Shown: in pieces, positions 15,444 through 23,659 of the stretch
Numbering within the stretch: position 1 is the stretch's first letter
Layout of the letters: every line of letters begins with the position of its first letter
NCBI GenBank assembly: GCA_009379795.1
Contig: WHTC01000006.1
Span: forward strand, 1 to 40,681
Source of the DNA: Nitriliruptorales bacterium
Lineage (GTDB): Bacteria; Actinomycetota; Nitriliruptoria; Euzebyales; Egibacteraceae
DNA: 40,681 nucleotides
Reading direction: 5' to 3'
Notes under the pieces: generated by a model
What the model was told of the DNA's origin: nothing
The model's input: the letters and a program-made list of their open reading frames with translations, nothing else
Database searches by the model: none
Translations under genes and position numbers: made by a program

Positions 15444-15557
15444 CCCCGCGAGACCGGGCGTGGAGGACTGGCCGTCCCATTGGCCGGCCGACGCTACGCT
15501 GCGGCGCGGTGCGCGCCTACCCTGGGCGTCCCAGGAGAGCAGAGGACGACGGAGCGG

Positions 15558-17792
15558 ATGGCGGCGGAGGGACAGAGCCGACCTCACGCCGAGGGGATGA
15601 TTCCGGGCGTGACGGAACGTGGCGTGCGAGGGCTCGTCGAGGGCGCCGCCGGTTATCGCCCCCTGTTGCGCAACCGCAACTACCGTCTGTTCTTCCTGGC
15701 CTCGCTGGGTTCCAGCCTGGGTGACTGGGCCGGACTGTTCGCTCTGCAGATTCTCATCCTGCAGCTGTCGACGCAGGGCTCCCGCTTCGCGCTGTTCTCC
15801 CTCGGCGCGATCATGATGGCCCGCCTGCTGCCCAGCCTCCTGCTCGGGCCCGTCGCCGGGGTGTTCGCCGACCGCTATGACCGCAAGCGGTTGATGGTGT
15901 TCTGCAATGTCGTCCGCGGTGTGCTGTTCCTGGGCATCGCCCTCAGCACCGACCTCATCGCCCTGCTCGCCCTGACCTTCATCGTGGAGTGCCTCGCGCT
16001 GATGTTCGTCGCCGCCAAGGACTCCTCGGTCCCCAGCGTCGTCGGGCGGCGCCAGCTCACCGAGGCGAACCAGCTCAACCTGCTGGCGACCTACGGCCCG
16101 CTCCCGTTCGGGGCGGCGCTGCCCGCGCTGATCGCCGGCATCACCGCGCTGCTGGCCAACGCAGGCCTGGACGTCAACGCCGTCCGCTTGGTGCTGGTCC
16201 TCAACGCGCTCGCGCTGTTCGCGGCCGGTGGACTGATCTCGCGGCTGCGGCTGCCGGCGCGCAGGAGGGCCGCGGACCACGACGAGCCCGCGAACTTCCT
16301 GGCCGAGTTGCGCAGCGGCATGACCTTCATCGGCGGTCGCCCGCTGATCCGCTCGCTGATCCTCGGCGTGGTCGGGGTCTTCTTCGGCGCCGGTGTCGTC
16401 GTCACCCTGGGCCCGGAATTCGTGCGCACCGAACTCGGCCGTCCCTCCACCGACTGGTCGCTGCTGATCACCACCGTCGGCGTGGGGTTGGCGGTGGGCA
16501 TCGCGGTAGTCGGGCTGACCCGCACCCTGTCCAAGGCCAAGGTCTTCCCGTGGGCGCTGGCCGCCACCGGTGCCATCACTGCGATCATCGCCACGCTGCC
16601 CGACTTCCCCCTCACCCTGGCCTTCGGCTTCCTGCTGGGCGTGGCGGCGGGTATCGCCTTCGTCATGGGCTACACGCTGCTGCATGAGACCACACCGGAC
16701 GATGTGCGCGGCAAGACCTTCGCCGCCTTCTACACCGCCACGCGCGCGGCGCTGTTCTCCTCGTTGGCGGTGGCCCCGTTCGTCGCCGCGTTCATCGGCT
16801 TCTTCTCCCTGCGAATCGGCGACTTTCGCGTGTCGATGTCAGGCGTCCGGGCCAGCATGCTCGTCGCCGGCCTGGTCGGGCTGTTCGCCGCGGTCAGGGC
16901 CGGGCGGGGGATGTACCGGGCGGTGAACAACGAGCAGCGCTCCTTCCACCTGCCCGGCCAGCAGGTCGGGACGACAGGCGAGGGCGTGTTCGTCGCCTTC
17001 GAGGGCGTCGAGGGATCGGGAAAGTCGACGCAGGTCCATGCGCTCGTCGAGATCCTGCAGCGCGAGGGCCACGAGGTTGTGATCACCCGGGAGCCGGGCG
17101 GGCCCCCCGTGGCTGAGCACATCCGGGACCTGCTGCTGGATCCGGATATCGGGCCCATGCACCCTCGAACCGAGGCGCTGCTCTACGCCGCCGCCCGTGC
17201 CGAGCACCTGGAGCAGGTCGTCCTGCCGGCCCTGCACGAGGGCAAGGTCGTCATCTGCGACCGTTTCCTGGACTCCTCGCTGGCCTACCAGGGCTACGGG
17301 CGGGGTCTGGGCACCGATGACGTGCTCGACATCAACACCTGGGCGGTCGACGGGGTGCTTCCCCACGTGGTGGTGCTGCTGCGGTTGGACCCCGCCGAGG
17401 GGCTCCGCCGGGTGGCCGAGCGCATCCGCGACGCCGTCAACGATCAGCGCGACACGACTCCTCCAGGTGGGCGCACGGGGATGGATCGACTGGAGCAGGC
17501 GGACCTTGCCTTCCACCGGCGTGTGGCGGAGGGCTACCTGCAGTTGGTGCGGCGGGACCCCGGTCGCTTCCTGGTGGTCGACGCGTCTGCCGACGCCATG
17601 ACCGTGGCCCGCTCGGTACGCACCGGGCTGCACCGGTGGCTGCCGCTGCCGGCGGTCCAGGATCCTGCCAAGCGTCTGCCGGGTGGCGGAGCCGCCGGGG
17701 AGACCGGACGCACGGCCCGGCAGCGGGATGAGGAGGGGAAGGAGAGCGCCGCCGACGGAACGGCGCGGGCGGGAGGCCGGTCGCGGCGATGA
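15558..17792 (+). CDS. tmk: Fusion: N-terminal MFS transporter plus C-terminal thymidylate kinase
   Basis: Twelve-TM-like MFS region, then VFVAFEGVEGSGKSTQVHALVEILQREGHEVVITREPGG and VICDRFLDSSLAYQGYGRG. Start uncertain (15480, 15558 or 15597). Confidence 0.9.
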   Translation: MAAEGQSRPHAEGMIPGVTERGVRGLVEGAAGYRPLLRNRNYRLFFLASLGSSLGDWAGLFALQILILQLSTQGSRFALFSLGAIMMARLLPSLLLGPVAGVFADRYDRKRLMVFCNVVRGVLFLGIALSTDLIALLALTFIVECLALMFVAAKDSSVPSVVGRRQLTEANQLNLLATYGPLPFGAALPALIAGITALLANAGLDVNAVRLVLVLNALALFAAGGLISRLRLPARRRAADHDEPANFLAELRSGMTFIGGRPLIRSLILGVVGVFFGAGVVVTLGPEFVRTELGRPSTDWSLLITTVGVGLAVGIAVVGLTRTLSKAKVFPWALAATGAITAIIATLPDFPLTLAFGFLLGVAAGIAFVMGYTLLHETTPDDVRGKTFAAFYTATRAALFSSLAVAPFVAAFIGFFSLRIGDFRVSMSGVRASMLVAGLVGLFAAVRAGRGMYRAVNNEQRSFHLPGQQVGTTGEGVFVAFEGVEGSGKSTQVHALVEILQREGHEVVITREPGGPPVAEHIRDLLLDPDIGPMHPRTEALLYAAARAEHLEQVVLPALHEGKVVICDRFLDSSLAYQGYGRGLGTDDVLDINTWAVDGVLPHVVVLLRLDPAEGLRRVAERIRDAVNDQRDTTPPGGRTGMDRLEQADLAFHRRVAEGYLQLVRRDPGRFLVVDASADAMTVARSVRTGLHRWLPLPAVQDPAKRLPGGGAAGETGRTARQRDEEGKESAADGTARAGGRSRR

Positions 17793-18943
17793 GCGCCGAG
17801 CCGCCCCCCGCCTCGTGGGACATCCCCGGCCAGCGCCGTGCCGCTGCCGTCCTCCAGGGGGCGTGCGCCCGGGACGAGGTCAGCCATGCCTGGGCGTTTG
17901 TGGGACCGGCAGGGGTGGGCCAGGAGCAGGCCGCGCGCACGCTGGCCGCCGCGCTCAACTGCGCTCAGGCGGCCGAGGGCGCGCCCTGCGGCGCTTGCGA
18001 CGTCTGCCAGCGCTGCCGCCGCGGCGCCTTCCCCTCCTTCTGGGAGTTCGCTCCCTCCGGCAGTTTCCATCGTGTGAACGAGGTGCGTGAGCAGTGGCTG
18101 GCGACGGCCTTCCGCAGTGCTGTTGAGGGGCGTTGGAAGGTGCTGCGGATCATTGACGCGCACCGCATGAACGAGGCGGCGGCCAACGCCTTCCTCAAGG
18201 GTCTGGAGGAGCCCCCGCCCAATGCGGTCTGGGTGCTGGACATCGCCGACCCTGACGAGTTGCCCGACACGATCCTGTCGCGCTGCCGGACGGTGCGCTT
18301 CGTGGCCTGGACTCCCGACGAACTGCGTGCTGAGACGCGGCGGCTTGGCCTGGACGACGACCAGGATCGGGCGCTGGCGGTACGGGCCTCCCTCGGGTCG
18401 CCAGTGGCTCTGGCACGGCTGGCCGCCCCCGGTGGACTGGATGATCTGCGCATGCATCGGGAGATCCCCCGCCGGCTGCGCGAGCAGGGTTCCGGCTACG
18501 CGGTGCTGGCAGCCCGGCAGTTGGATGAGGAGGGCAAGCGCCGGAGCGCCGCGTTGAAGGCCGAGGGCCGTGCAGAACTGGAGGCGCTGGCGGAGTTGTA
18601 CGGGGATGCGCTCCCGCGCGGGGTCGCCAAGCAGGTGGAGGATGGCCTGTCCCGGCGGGAGCGCGAGGCGCGCCTGAGCACGCTGCAGGCGGCTCTGGAC
18701 GACCTGGTCGGGTGGTACCGCGACTGCCTGCTGGTAGCGGCTGGCGGGCATCCCGCGCAGGCGCTGCACGCCGACGACGCGAAGGCGCTGCAGGCCGACG
18801 CCGCTGCGTCCAGTCCCGCGGCCACCCTGCGCGCCATCGACCTGGTGCTCGCCGCGCGCGAGGATCTGGAGCTCAACGTCCAGCAGACCCTCGCCCTGGA
18901 GGCGCTGTTCCTGGAACTGGCGAACCTCGCGCTGACCACCTGA
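17789..18943 (+). CDS. holB: DNA polymerase III delta' subunit
   Basis: HAWAFVGPAGVGQEQAARTLAAALNC, CGACDVCQRCRRGAFPSF, IDAHRMNEAAANAFLKGLEEPPPNAVWVL and LSRCRTVRF. ATGA overlap with tmk. Confidence 0.9.
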   Translation: MSAEPPPASWDIPGQRRAAAVLQGACARDEVSHAWAFVGPAGVGQEQAARTLAAALNCAQAAEGAPCGACDVCQRCRRGAFPSFWEFAPSGSFHRVNEVREQWLATAFRSAVEGRWKVLRIIDAHRMNEAAANAFLKGLEEPPPNAVWVLDIADPDELPDTILSRCRTVRFVAWTPDELRAETRRLGLDDDQDRALAVRASLGSPVALARLAAPGGLDDLRMHREIPRRLREQGSGYAVLAARQLDEEGKRRSAALKAEGRAELEALAELYGDALPRGVAKQVEDGLSRREREARLSTLQAALDDLVGWYRDCLLVAAGGHPAQALHADDAKALQADAAASSPAATLRAIDLVLAAREDLELNVQQTLALEALFLELANLALTT

Positions 18944-18952
18944 GTGCGGGCG

Positions 18953-19639
18953 TCAGGCGGCGATCGTGGTCATGACCAGCGCCTCTCCCCGCTGGCGCAC
19001 GGCGAGCGCGTGGTCGAAACGGTTCGCCTCGCTCGCCAGCTCCAGGTCCTCCAGCGGAAACGCGACCTTGGCGGGGTCGGCGAACCGGCGGCCGGCGGTG
19101 GAGGCCCGGATCCGGGCCAGGAACGGCTCCACCGCCGGCGCCAGCCCCGCGACCAACGCGGCGATGTACTCGGCGCAGGCGCGGTCCTCCTCACCGTCCC
19201 GGCGCTCGTCGGCGCCGGTGACGACAAAGGTCACGGTGTCGGGCTTCAACCGCCGGAGCATCCGGGCTGTGGCCGCCGCCGAGACGAAGCTGGCCGCGAG
19301 CAGCCGGCTGGCCCTGGCGCTGCGCACCAGGCCCTGTGTGCCGGCCGTCGTGCGGTGGACGATCACGCACCCGCTCAGGTCGCGGCGCCTGACCTCGGCG
19401 GGGGAGTTGCTGAGGTCGAAGCCGTCCACCGGCAGCCCGGCGACCTCCCCGGCCACCAGCAGCGCGGGATCGCGCTCTCGCGCCAGCAGCGCCTCGTCGA
19501 CGGTGGCGACGGGGCGGATCTCCCGGACCCCGGCGGCGAAGGCGTAGCTGGCCATCGTGAACGCCCGCAGCACGTCGATCACGACCACGGTGCCCTCGGC
19601 TTGTGCACAGGTCGTCAGGTCCGCCATGACCGTCCGCAT
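18953..19639 (-). CDS. ComB-like (2-phosphosulfolactate phosphatase family) protein
   Basis: VVVIDVLRAFTMASYAFAAG, LVAGEVAGLPVDGFDLSNSPAEV and LSGCVIVHRTTAGTQGL are ComB-family signatures. Confidence 0.85.
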   Translation of the reverse strand: MRTVMADLTTCAQAEGTVVVIDVLRAFTMASYAFAAGVREIRPVATVDEALLARERDPALLVAGEVAGLPVDGFDLSNSPAEVRRRDLSGCVIVHRTTAGTQGLVRSARASRLLAASFVSAAATARMLRRLKPDTVTFVVTGADERRDGEEDRACAEYIAALVAGLAPAVEPFLARIRASTAGRRFADPAKVAFPLEDLELASEANRFDHALAVRQRGEALVMTTIAA

Positions 19640-19665
19640 GCTCACAGCCTGCGGCACAACCGATC

Positions 19666-21525
19666 TCAGCCTTCGGCGGCGTGCCGCGACACGCGGGGGA
19701 ACGAGGCGATGGCCGGGTTGCAGTCGCCGAATACCACCCGGCGGCCACCCCCGACCCCCAACAGTGCGAATGCGGTCTCCGGCAGGGTCTGCAGGACGGT
19801 CGGCTCGACGTGGAACTCATAGACCCGTGACCGGGTCTGGCCGCCCTGACGGCTTTCTGCCCAAGCCTGGTTCACCGACTGGGACCAGTCGGCCGAGCGT
19901 GACGAGGTCACCACCACCGAGGTGGTAGCCCTTCGGTCGGGGACCCAGCCCGAGCCGGTCGTCCTGCTGCGCTCGTTGGCCTCGCTGGTGGCGCTCGCCT
20001 CGGAGCCGCCCGCGCTCGTGCCGCGTGCATCGGTGAAGGTCTGGCCGAGCTGCATCGTGAGATCGCTCAACTCGAAACGGTGACCCCGGCCGATGAACTC
20101 CGCCGCGGTCGCGGCCTCCCTGCCGTTACCCAGGCGCATGACCACGGTGGCGCCGGCGCCGGCACCGAGGAAGCGCTCCGCGATGTCGCGCAGGTGGTGG
20201 AACATCACCAGGAGTTGGACCTGCGAGCGCTCGGCCTGGCGGGCCAGCCGTTCCAGCGCGCCGTCCCCGAGCCTGTCCGCGCCGGCCACCGCCACGGTCT
20301 GCCGCCAGTTCGCGGCCGGCGCGTTGCGCAGCCCATGCAGCAGGGCCTGGACCACTACCCGATCCAGCAGTTCCTTGCGGGCGCTGTCGTGACCACCGGT
20401 CTCCACGACCAGCACGCCCTCGGCCGGTCGGAGACGGGCTGCGGTCGCGGGGTTCGCGGGCGCGGCTCCACCGAGCAGGTCGAGGCTGATCCGAAGCAGT
20501 CGCAGGCGCTCACGCGCGCGTTCGGTGCCTGCGGCTCGTTCGATCTCTTCGACCAACCGGTCGACCTCGGCGGGCGCCAGCACCCCCTGCTGGTCGGACT
20601 CGCCGAGCAGCGTGCGGATCCCCGCGGCCAGCCGGGTCACCGACGCCGGCCCCTGCAGGCACCCAGCCACGGTGCGCAGCAGGTCGGCGTCGGCCGCGCG
20701 GTCGTCGGGTCCGTCATCACCGCGGGCGCGGCCGGCGTGGATGGCGTCGGTGAACAGCGTCACCACATCGTCGCCGCCGAGGCCGGCCAGCAGGTCGATC
20801 CGGTCGAGCTCATCCGGCAGCCTGATGCCCGCCACTGCCTTTCCCACCTGGCCGGCCAGAGCGGCCAGATCGTCGGCGACGCCGTACTCGCTGAAGTCCA
20901 GGACCAGCAGCGCCGCGTCCTGGCTCAGCCGTGAGCAGCCGAAGGTCGCCAGCAGCGAGTTCCAGCCGACTCCTCCGCCCCCCACCACGTCGATGCGCGC
21001 CCCGATCGGCTGCGCTGGCAGCGGATACCACAGCGGCGCCTGCGCCAGGCGGTGCAACTCGGACTCCTCCTGAAGCTCAACCTGTCGGCGCCACTCGTCG
21101 ACCCGGCGCAGATGCTCTGCCCACAGCCGGGTGCGCCGCTGCTCGTACGTCTGCTCCGACTCCTCCCACTCACGGCGAAGCTGACGCTCGCGGGCTCCGA
21201 CGGCGCGGAGCAGAGGGTAGATCGCACCGAAGGTGCCAACGGACAGCAGGGGACCCCACCAGCTCTGGCCGAGCAGGATCAGCCCGGCGACGAACAGCGC
21301 AACCACGATCCCCGCGACCAGCGGTCCGGGGGGCCCGCTGGCCCGCGCTTGGTGCAGGGCGTAGGCGTACGCCAGTTCGTCGGGGGCGGGCGGCTCGTGC
21401 CAGACCGGCTCCTCCTCGGCGAGGGAACCGGGCTGCACGGGCCCGAGTTCGGCGGCCTCCCAGCCCAGCCGGTCCCGGCCGGCGAACAGCAAGTGCGGAT
21501 CGAAGCCACCTGCCATCTCGTCCAT
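19666..21525 (-). CDS. Membrane-anchored protein resembling VirD4/TraG/HerA-type P-loop ATPase, with degenerate Walker A and B
   Basis: N-terminal TM pair, charged coiled-coil-like segment, RIDVVGGGGVGWNSLLATFG...ALLVLDFSEYGVADDLAALA, then TVAVAGADRLGDGALERLARQAERSQVQLLVMFHHLRDIAERFL. ORF confidence high; family assignment is inference. Confidence 0.7.
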   Translation of the reverse strand: MDEMAGGFDPHLLFAGRDRLGWEAAELGPVQPGSLAEEEPVWHEPPAPDELAYAYALHQARASGPPGPLVAGIVVALFVAGLILLGQSWWGPLLSVGTFGAIYPLLRAVGARERQLRREWEESEQTYEQRRTRLWAEHLRRVDEWRRQVELQEESELHRLAQAPLWYPLPAQPIGARIDVVGGGGVGWNSLLATFGCSRLSQDAALLVLDFSEYGVADDLAALAGQVGKAVAGIRLPDELDRIDLLAGLGGDDVVTLFTDAIHAGRARGDDGPDDRAADADLLRTVAGCLQGPASVTRLAAGIRTLLGESDQQGVLAPAEVDRLVEEIERAAGTERARERLRLLRISLDLLGGAAPANPATAARLRPAEGVLVVETGGHDSARKELLDRVVVQALLHGLRNAPAANWRQTVAVAGADRLGDGALERLARQAERSQVQLLVMFHHLRDIAERFLGAGAGATVVMRLGNGREAATAAEFIGRGHRFELSDLTMQLGQTFTDARGTSAGGSEASATSEANERSRTTGSGWVPDRRATTSVVVTSSRSADWSQSVNQAWAESRQGGQTRSRVYEFHVEPTVLQTLPETAFALLGVGGGRRVVFGDCNPAIASFPRVSRHAAEG

Positions 21526-21561: not shown

Positions 21562-23514
21562 TCATGCCAAGGATGCGGGCAGGCACTCGCCATGGCGCGT
21601 GGCCAGCAGGTCTTCGAGATCCTCCGGACCGAGGGGATAGGAGAACAGGTAGCCCTGGCCGAGGTCGCAGCCGAGTCGCCGCAGATGGGCCAGCTGCCCG
21701 CTGCTCTCGATGCCCTCGGCGATGATCTGCATGTCCAGGGTCCGGGCCATCTGCACGATGCCTTCGGTCAGCTTGGCCTGTCGCCCATCGCTGCCCAGGC
21801 CGGCGACGAAGGAGCGGTCGATCTTCAGCACGTCAACCGGCAGCCGCTGAAGGTAGGACAGCGAGCAGTACCCGGTGCCGAAGTCATCCACAGCAAGCCG
21901 GATCCCGAGTTCCTTGAGGCTGTGGACCGTCGCGGCGGCGGACTGTGTGTCGCGCAGCAGCGTGCTCTCGGTGAGTTCGAGCACCAGGCACGCCGGCGGC
22001 AGGCCGGAGTTCTCCAGCGCCCGCTCCACGTCCTCCACGACGGCGCCCTCGTCGAGCTGCGTGCTCGTCAGGTTGACGCTGATCGACAGCGGCTGGCCAG
22101 GGAAGCGCGCCCGGCACGCCTGCGCCTGCAGGCATGCCCGCTCCAGCACCCAGCGGCCGATCGGCCGCATCAGCCGCGTCTCCTCGGCCACCGGCAGGAA
22201 CTCGTCCGGCAGCAGCGTGCCGAGCTGCGGGTGCTGCCACCGCAGCAGCGCTTCGGTGGCCACCGCGCGCCCGCTGCCGAGTTCAACGATCGGCTGGTAG
22301 TGCAGGAACAGCTCGCGCCGGGCGAGGGCGTTGGCGAGATCCGCGCGCAGGCTCAGGCGCTGCAGGGCGCCGTTCTGCAGCGCCGCGTCAAACACCGCCA
22401 CCTGGCCTTTGCCCTGGCTCTTCGCCTGGCGCATGGCCATGTCCGCGTCCCGCAGCAGCGAGGCGGCCGAGGCACCTTCGTTGGTCAAGGCGATACCGAC
22501 GCAGGCGTGCATGGTGAGGGTCAGCCCGTGCAGCGCCAGCGGCTGGGCCACCACTTCGACGAGTCCGCGAGCCACCTGCACCGCCGTGTGCATGCTGGGC
22601 AGGTCGACCAGCAGGACGCCGAACTCGTCGCCGCCAAGACGGGCCGCCAGGTCATCGGGGCGCAGGCACCCGTTGATCCGAAGCGCGACCTTCAGCAGCA
22701 ACTCGTCACCGACGGCGTGGCCCAGCGTGTCGTTGACGGTCTTGAAGTCGTCGATGTCCAGGAACAGGACAGCAAGCAGCCGAGGACGGCCGTTGCGGAC
22801 GGCCAGTGCCTCCTCCACCCTCCGGTGGAACAGCAGACGGTTGGGCAGAGCGGTCAGCGGGTCGTGCAGCGCCTGATGGACGAGTTTCGCCTCAATTGCC
22901 TTGCGCTGGGTGATCTCATGGACGTTGAGGACGAACCCCGCGACCGCGGGGTCCTCGCGCAGGTCGGAGAGTTTGGACTCCACCCAGAGGATGCTGCCGT
23001 CGGCCCGCTGGAGTCGCAGGTCGAAGGGCAGCACCGCGGCGTCCTCCTCTTCGAGATCGCGGAGGGCGCCGGTCAGCAGCGGCAGGTCTTCAGGGTGCAC
23101 CAGGTCGGCCGTATCCATGCCGACGCAGTCGTTCGGCTCCAGCCCCACCAGCCTGCCTGCGGCCGGACTCAGGTAGGTGATGCCGCCGTGCCCATCGATC
23201 ACCAGAGCAAGGTCAGGAGCATGCCGGAGCAGTGATTGGAACAAGCGGTCGCCGGGGATCGTGGCCCACCGGTACCGAGCGGTCCGTCGGCGGGCGAGGC
23301 GCCACAGCGCGAGCGCCATCAGCAGACCCGCCCAGGCGGCCAGGACCCATCCCCACGCCACACCGACCGACCCTGAGGGGATAACCAGGAGCGCAACCAA
23401 GGCGCCCAAGGGAAGGAACAGCGGCAGGCACACAACGTCGGTGGGCCCGCGCCGCCTCCGCGGCCGCGGGGCTGCGGGACCGCAGCGCTGGTGTTTCACG
23501 CGGGAGTTGCCCAT
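21562..23514 (-). CDS. Membrane PAS-GGDEF-EAL protein (c-di-GMP turnover)
   Basis: ARLGGDEFGVLL with upstream RPDD I-site, TEALLRW, LELTES, DDFGTGYCSL, LKIDRSF and AEGIE. GGAG SD before ATG 23514; ORF open to 23634. Confidence 0.93.
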   Translation of the reverse strand: MGNSRVKHQRCGPAAPRPRRRRGPTDVVCLPLFLPLGALVALLVIPSGSVGVAWGWVLAAWAGLLMALALWRLARRRTARYRWATIPGDRLFQSLLRHAPDLALVIDGHGGITYLSPAAGRLVGLEPNDCVGMDTADLVHPEDLPLLTGALRDLEEEDAAVLPFDLRLQRADGSILWVESKLSDLREDPAVAGFVLNVHEITQRKAIEAKLVHQALHDPLTALPNRLLFHRRVEEALAVRNGRPRLLAVLFLDIDDFKTVNDTLGHAVGDELLLKVALRINGCLRPDDLAARLGGDEFGVLLVDLPSMHTAVQVARGLVEVVAQPLALHGLTLTMHACVGIALTNEGASAASLLRDADMAMRQAKSQGKGQVAVFDAALQNGALQRLSLRADLANALARRELFLHYQPIVELGSGRAVATEALLRWQHPQLGTLLPDEFLPVAEETRLMRPIGRWVLERACLQAQACRARFPGQPLSISVNLTSTQLDEGAVVEDVERALENSGLPPACLVLELTESTLLRDTQSAAATVHSLKELGIRLAVDDFGTGYCSLSYLQRLPVDVLKIDRSFVAGLGSDGRQAKLTEGIVQMARTLDMQIIAEGIESSGQLAHLRRLGCDLGQGYLFSYPLGPEDLEDLLATRHGECLPASLA

Positions 23515-23659
23515 GCCATGTCTCCGACGCGGAGGATCCTCTTTTCTGCGGCGCGCCGCGTCGCACCCGCACGCACGCTCACTGTTCGGCTGGCCTGTCG
23601 GCTGGCTCGGCCGCGCGGGGTCGCCCTCCCCCATCCGGGGGAAAGTCTGCCACCTTTGA

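Follow-up and report, generated by a model that had tools for sequence, protein, structure and literature searches.

A candidate pseudo-ATPase family related to VirD4/TrwB and HerA proteins, with a proposed role in toxin export by actinobacteria

Coupling proteins of the VirD4/TrwB type combine an N-terminal helical hairpin with a RecA-like core into which an all-helical region is inserted. The EccC/EssC motors of type VII secretion systems (T7SSs) are membrane-anchored and export effectors with FtsK/HerA-type domains, some degenerate and others active, several of these domains being arranged in tandem and the substrates being WXG100 or LXG proteins. EccC shows that an exporter can require degenerate FtsK/HerA domains, and in the degenerate domain of EccC5 an extended helix replaces the P-loop and nucleotide is not bound (PMC11154593). 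Variable modular toxins encoded beside constant trafficking genes are the layout of polymorphic toxin trafficking (PMC3482391). Further, exported alarmone synthetases include a signal-less RelA/SpoT protein encoded beside TrwB-, TrwK-, and TrwI-like genes in Streptomyces albireticuli (PMC12691689).

We analyzed a 40,681-nucleotide stretch of DNA from a Nitriliruptorales bacterium (the window), which is contig C475 of a draft assembly (3.65 Mb, 511 contigs, 95.45% complete) and encodes a member of a protein family that resembles the coupling proteins in its N-terminal hairpin and in its predicted RecA-like core, which likewise has an all-helical insertion. Unlike the coupling proteins, the family has lost both catalytic motifs and is accompanied by a separate HerA-type ATPase as the candidate motor, and most of its loci lack relaxase or type IV secretion system (T4SS) genes, with T4SS-like neighbors only in Frankia loci. 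The probable membrane anchor and the pairing of degenerate with active domains recall EccC/EssC, but here the two kinds of domain are split over two proteins, the AlphaFold2 model shows one ATPase-like domain per chain rather than several in tandem, no Pfam hit to WXG100 or LXG was obtained among the neighbors scanned, and the N termini of the putative cargo beside the HerA partner are disordered and proline-rich, unlike those of T7SS cargo. The partner itself shares a HerA core with described HerA-type ATPases (NF033849, HerA_antiphage, and CedD; PADLOC HerA) but has N- and C-terminal regions of its own and falls far short of the NCBIfam cut-offs. As in polymorphic toxin modules, relatives of the window locus display a common N terminus, varied toxin-like C termini, and constant putative trafficking genes, whereas the window locus does not.

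The window gene and its homologues

The pseudo-ATPase gene was read from the window as an open reading frame (ORF) encoding 619 residues on the (-) strand (19666-21525). By eye, it is flanked on the same strand by a ComB-like gene (18953-19657) and a GGDEF/EAL gene (21562-23634), separated from it by 8 and 36 bases, respectively. Homologues are 25-46% identical to the window protein, and we therefore regard the gene as real and conserved. The nearest relative that carries it, a genome of the same family (G011), has two copies with 46% and 43% identity to the window protein, and a search of a 397-genome sample of the phylum with the window protein found five positive genomes, the window's own included. 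When an alignment of 19 family members (A1) was used as the query, 79 loci were found in named genomes, all of them actinobacterial and belonging to Streptomyces, Actinomadura, Frankia, Actinoplanes, Micromonospora, Amycolatopsis, Kutzneria, and other genera; a scan of genome contigs with the single window sequence, unlike the alignment-based scan, gave no matches. The aligned family comprises 95 members, again all actinobacterial, and its distribution is patchy, with some loci on plasmids.

Comparison with sequence databases was uninformative. The window protein matched no Pfam family at E ≤ 10, and so neither DUF87 nor HerA_C, and neither it nor the family alignment gave anything meaningful against Pfam, NCBIfam, PADLOC, or PDB sequences. 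No sequence profile detected a P-loop domain in the family, and no coupling protein (T4CP) profile matched it; the sole NCBIfam model matched was NF033849, weakly and via a Ser-rich loop.

Two further ORFs of the window were noted by eye. The first (17789-18940, (+) strand) resembles DNA polymerase III delta-prime and has GPAGVGQEQAAR at the Walker A site (canonical GxxGxGKT), so that its P-loop lysine looks to be replaced too. The second (15480-17792, (+) strand; 770 amino acids) looks like a fusion of an MFS transporter and a thymidylate kinase (GVEGSGKST).

Predicted fold and loss of the catalytic motifs

An AlphaFold2 model built on alignment A1 had a mean pLDDT of 76.6 and a pTM of 0.67, with most of the ATPase core above 85. 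When this model was compared with solved structures using Foldseek, TrwB was the top match (E = 1.4e-8), followed by Cag-beta (2.7e-8), VirB4 (3.7e-6), and HerA (4.5e-6), and the Sir2-HerA complex was also among the matches, after Cag-beta; all had a probability of 1.00. The TM-scores were moderate (0.41 when normalized to the query and up to 0.60 when normalized to the target), as expected of a distant relative. This one model supports a predicted RecA-like fold of the FtsK/HerA superfamily and agrees with the sequence-only reading of the ORF as a VirD4/TraG/HerA-type protein. That reading had also proposed an N-terminal transmembrane pair followed by a charged helical region, and the model has a hydrophobic two-helix N terminus and a long charged helix (within residues 91-162) at this place. 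Common to the members are an N-terminal R[LWF]GW motif, the hydrophobic hairpin, the long charged helix, a Ser-rich loop, and three sequence blocks, namely GG...GW, GAD, and, at the C terminus, RVYE..VEP...LP. In the window, the main features are as follows.

19666..21525, (-) strand: pseudo-ATPase gene (P0001), from homologues and the AlphaFold2 model
21193..21327, (-) strand: hydrophobic helical hairpin, residues 67-111, GPLVAGIVVALFVAGLILLGQSWWGPLLSVGTFGAIYPLLRAVGA; helices 67-87 and 91-162 in the model; probably two transmembrane helices
21040..21192, (-) strand: long charged helix, residues 112-162 (DSSP helix 91-162 in the model); probably a stalk or coiled coil
20959..20982, (-) strand: degenerate Walker A motif GGGGVGWN, residues 182-189 (canonical GxxGxGK[ST])
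20275..20301, (-) strand: degenerate Walker B strand and its end, QTVAVAGAD, residues 409-417 (canonical hhhhDE; strand 409-414)
19819..20082, (-) strand: Ser/Thr/Gly-rich disordered loop, residues 482-569 (pLDDT below 50 over 482-569)
19669..19827, (-) strand: conserved C-terminal block RVYE(F/Y)xVEP...LPxxAxxLV, residues 567-619, from the family alignment

The Ser-rich loop is also found in homologues, at variable length, and Arg-567, Val-568, Glu-570, Pro-575, and Pro-604 of the C-terminal block are invariant.

At the Walker A site, GGGGVGWNS (residues 182-190) corresponds to 20956-20982, and the longer string RIDVV...TFG that was originally singled out corresponds to 20938-20997. The GxxxxG spacing is exact in the window protein, with Trp in place of the lysine and Asn in place of Ser/Thr. 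Across the family, Gly-182 and Gly-183 are found in 94/94 members, whereas at position 188, where the spacing places the lysine, 82 members have Trp, nine Arg, two Ala, one Cys, and none Lys (n = 94); position 189 is Glu in 59 and Ala in 26 with other residues in the rest, and no Lys occurs anywhere at 183-192 (94-95 members). In the model, strand 177-181 is followed by a helix whose start, residue 185, lies ahead of the Walker lysine position; in the degenerate domain of EccC, too, the helix at the dead Walker A site starts early (PMC11154593).

The Walker B site, where VAVAGAD starts at 20295, is altered in a comparable manner. Position 415 is Gly in 91/95 members and Asp or Glu in 0/95, and position 416 is Ala in 81/95 and Glu in 8/95. 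Judged from the alignment, the equivalent of the DE pair would be either 414-415 or 415-416, and both acids appear in neither. One residue past the expected pair, Asp-417 is kept in 80/95 members and might conceivably serve as the acid. The loss of the Walker lysine (Trp-Asn in the window protein), as originally read from the single window sequence, therefore holds for all 94 members, and the replacement of the DE pair by Gly-Ala for most of the family; because the loss is family-wide, the motifs were not recently erased in the window genome. Homologues keep the substituted positions instead of scattering at random there (94-95 members). Further, dN/dS was 0.16-0.32 in eight close homologue pairs, which indicates that the protein is maintained by purifying selection. 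Because the substituted site is kept, the residues around it are conserved, and selection is purifying, we conclude that the family most consistently reads as an ancestral, maintained pseudo-ATPase. Conservation of the site in the alignment and the modeled fold support selection for a non-hydrolytic role, as first suspected.

A HerA partner and toxin-like neighbors

In most relatives, the gene is paired with an intact HerA ATPase and with toxin-like proteins. Clustering of the neighbors identified a HerA-like ATPase as one recurrent neighbor (in 13 of the 17 relative loci analyzed first), and a HerA-like gene lies within about 10 kb of the pseudo-ATPase in 56/79 named loci, a count that leaves out two loci fetched for the HerA partner itself. 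The partner matches Pfam DUF87/HerA_C, and its Walker A motif, GxTGxGKS, is intact in 56/56 cases and EEAH in 55/56. The two genes are divergent in 31 pairs and on the same strand in 25. Among 18 genomes without HerA at the pseudo-ATPase locus, five have a full-length copy elsewhere, and matches in the remainder are partial, weak, or absent; no HerA partner was detectable in several Frankia and Actinoplanes genomes with the pseudo-ATPase. At loci without HerA, a search for an alternative conserved partner found mainly genus-level synteny. A full-length HerA partner was detected in only three of 297 genomes of the phylum, all three with the pseudo-ATPase, and the pseudo-ATPase without HerA in one, the window's own; this co-occurrence is supportive rather than proof because the sample is small and centered on the window.

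We considered whether the pseudo-ATPase is a recent duplicate of its partner, but a profile comparison of the two found no similarity. The idea of a natural fusion of the two proteins, which arose when NF033849 matched both, was also dropped: the match to the pseudo-ATPase is the Ser-rich loop, and a 1144-amino-acid single-chain protein of genome G206 has an N terminus unlike the pseudo-ATPase. The latter protein (L138:7560-10991, (+) strand) is a HerA-family member, apparently of the NF033849 kind, with a long Ser-rich insertion to which the Ser-rich loop of the pseudo-ATPase family is similar.

The similarity to TrwB could mean that the pseudo-ATPase is a subunit that assists or regulates a conjugative T4SS of actinobacteria, i.e. 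a coupling protein that has lost its motor function. In favor of this explanation, the gene is convergent in five Frankia loci (L054, L055, L058, L061, and L062) with conserved T4SS-like genes, including those for a TraG P-loop protein and DUF6112. However, T4SS genes do not recur at other loci, the Frankia arrangement may be vertical synteny, and most loci have HerA and toxin-like genes instead; we consider a conjugative role improbable.

The genes adjoining HerA encode modular proteins in which a disordered, Pro- and acid-rich N terminus precedes a toxin-like C terminus. Compared with the remaining genes at these loci, they have more disordered N termini (Mann-Whitney P = 1.2e-10 once near-duplicates had been removed). 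Pfam matches identified the C termini as ADP-ribosyltransferases (L036 and L134; 3.5e-28 and 2.1e-24), calpain-type proteases (L035, L119, L123, L128, and L130; down to 4.9e-12), a zeta toxin (L114; 2.8e-18), and RelA/SpoT domains (L070 and L135, both short of the Pfam cut-off, narrowly so at 1.3e-5); the match of L085 to a papain-like C70 protease was weak. In L023, a modular toxin-like gene is followed by a DUF6883 gene, and the C terminus of the L109 protein was linked by NCBIfam to that of XopAD, a family in which Rel-like domains are reported (PMC12691689). The RelA/SpoT locus of S. albireticuli described in the same study is possibly of the same type as the loci analyzed here. Several of the modular proteins adjoining HerA have no recognizable toxin domain. 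Twelve proteins from Actinomadura and Actinoallomurus loci have PPPPDxPGxxGxPSRAxSR near the N terminus in common, but at least four unrelated types of C terminus occur among them. The modular proteins are often followed by small genes or an ankyrin gene. For example, RefSeq annotates a Streptomyces clavuligerus plasmid locus as a closely spaced, partly overlapping run of genes for a hypothetical protein, an ATP-binding protein, an ADP-ribosyltransferase, and a small hypothetical protein, and a Nocardia plasmid locus as hypothetical, ATP-binding, hypothetical, and ankyrin.

Two other kinds of gene were seen beside the pseudo-ATPase. Genes matching M48-type peptidases occur there in Actinomadura and Streptomyces (L100:2441-3595, (-) strand; L110:11819-13285, (-) strand, with DUF2510 at its start; L131:8360-9745, (+) strand), and the peptidase is possibly a third, processing component. 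Further, in some proteins that carry the sorting-like motif at the N terminus, the C terminus is a short hydrophobic stretch plus a basic tail (L103:11915-13270, L105, L107:12059-13405, L111, L114:10445-11779, and L115, (+) strand). Most of these are related to each other and adjoin the pseudo-ATPase gene, and they are perhaps an accessory part rather than toxins.

The main rival to an export role is defense, because HerA proteins occur in defense systems: HerA and the membrane pseudo-ATPase would sense invasion and release or activate the toxin proteins in the same cell. The HerA partner scores against two PADLOC models, HerA and Mads8, and against the anti-phage HerA model of NCBIfam, HerA-effector pairs such as Sir2-HerA (itself among the fold matches) are known, and the distribution of the family is patchy and partly on plasmids. 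However, full-length matches would score far higher against the PADLOC and NCBIfam models, the observed scores reflecting the common HerA core, the membrane hairpin of the pseudo-ATPase is conserved, and a sorting-like N terminus on varied C termini, followed by small or ankyrin genes, is the layout of exported polymorphic toxins. We therefore regard an intracellular anti-phage system as unlikely.

A proposed export machine and the window copy

Because a fixed ATPase-like pair lies beside changing modular toxins, and because degenerate domains can be essential in T7SSs, we propose, with somewhat more confidence than doubt, that the family is a membrane-anchored, catalytically dead relative of VirD4/TrwB and HerA that serves as a dock or receptor for a HerA motor exporting toxins. 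Its helical hairpin would anchor the pseudo-ATPase in the cell membrane, and the degenerate ATPase domain, alone or with HerA, would make a ring to dock the motor, bind substrates, or both. ATP hydrolysis by HerA would then thread the modular toxin proteins, marked for export by their disordered Pro- and acid-rich N termini, out of the cell. The physical complex, the ring, export, and the N terminus as a signal are all what we infer. That the pair constitutes an undescribed actinobacterial secretion system, with a motor split between a membrane pseudo-coupling protein and HerA, a Pro-rich signal, and no other T4 or T7 apparatus, is a more tentative proposal, on which we are close to evenly divided. 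We found no description of the pair in open-access text, and it is not mentioned in the HerA passages of a 2025 review of T4SS diversity (PMC12857230) nor, by word search, among the trafficking modes in PMC3482391.

The present role of the window copy is the least certain step of this explanation. The copy might have lost its tie to export and become a stand-alone membrane scaffold, which would be compatible with a dock or receptor role for the family. The HerA partner was not found in the window genome at E ≤ 1e-3, which makes the window copy an orphan in this assembly, and the gene has no cargo-like neighbor, sitting between the ComB-like and GGDEF/EAL genes. However, the genome is a draft of 511 contigs (95% complete), and in G011 the HerA gene and the cargo-like gene that follows it are on a different contig from the two pseudo-ATPase genes, so that separation does not mean loss. 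We consider the scaffold possible, although we lean against it.

FtsK/HerA pseudo-enzymes are known as domains in the T7SS motor, and here a whole protein family appears to be of this kind. Such a family, with both motifs lost and encoded beside an intact HerA and a changing set of toxin-like proteins, would point to an additional means of delivering protein weapons in soil actinobacteria, and it gives a proposed role to Streptomyces genes that carry no annotation beyond "hypothetical protein" and "ATP-binding protein."
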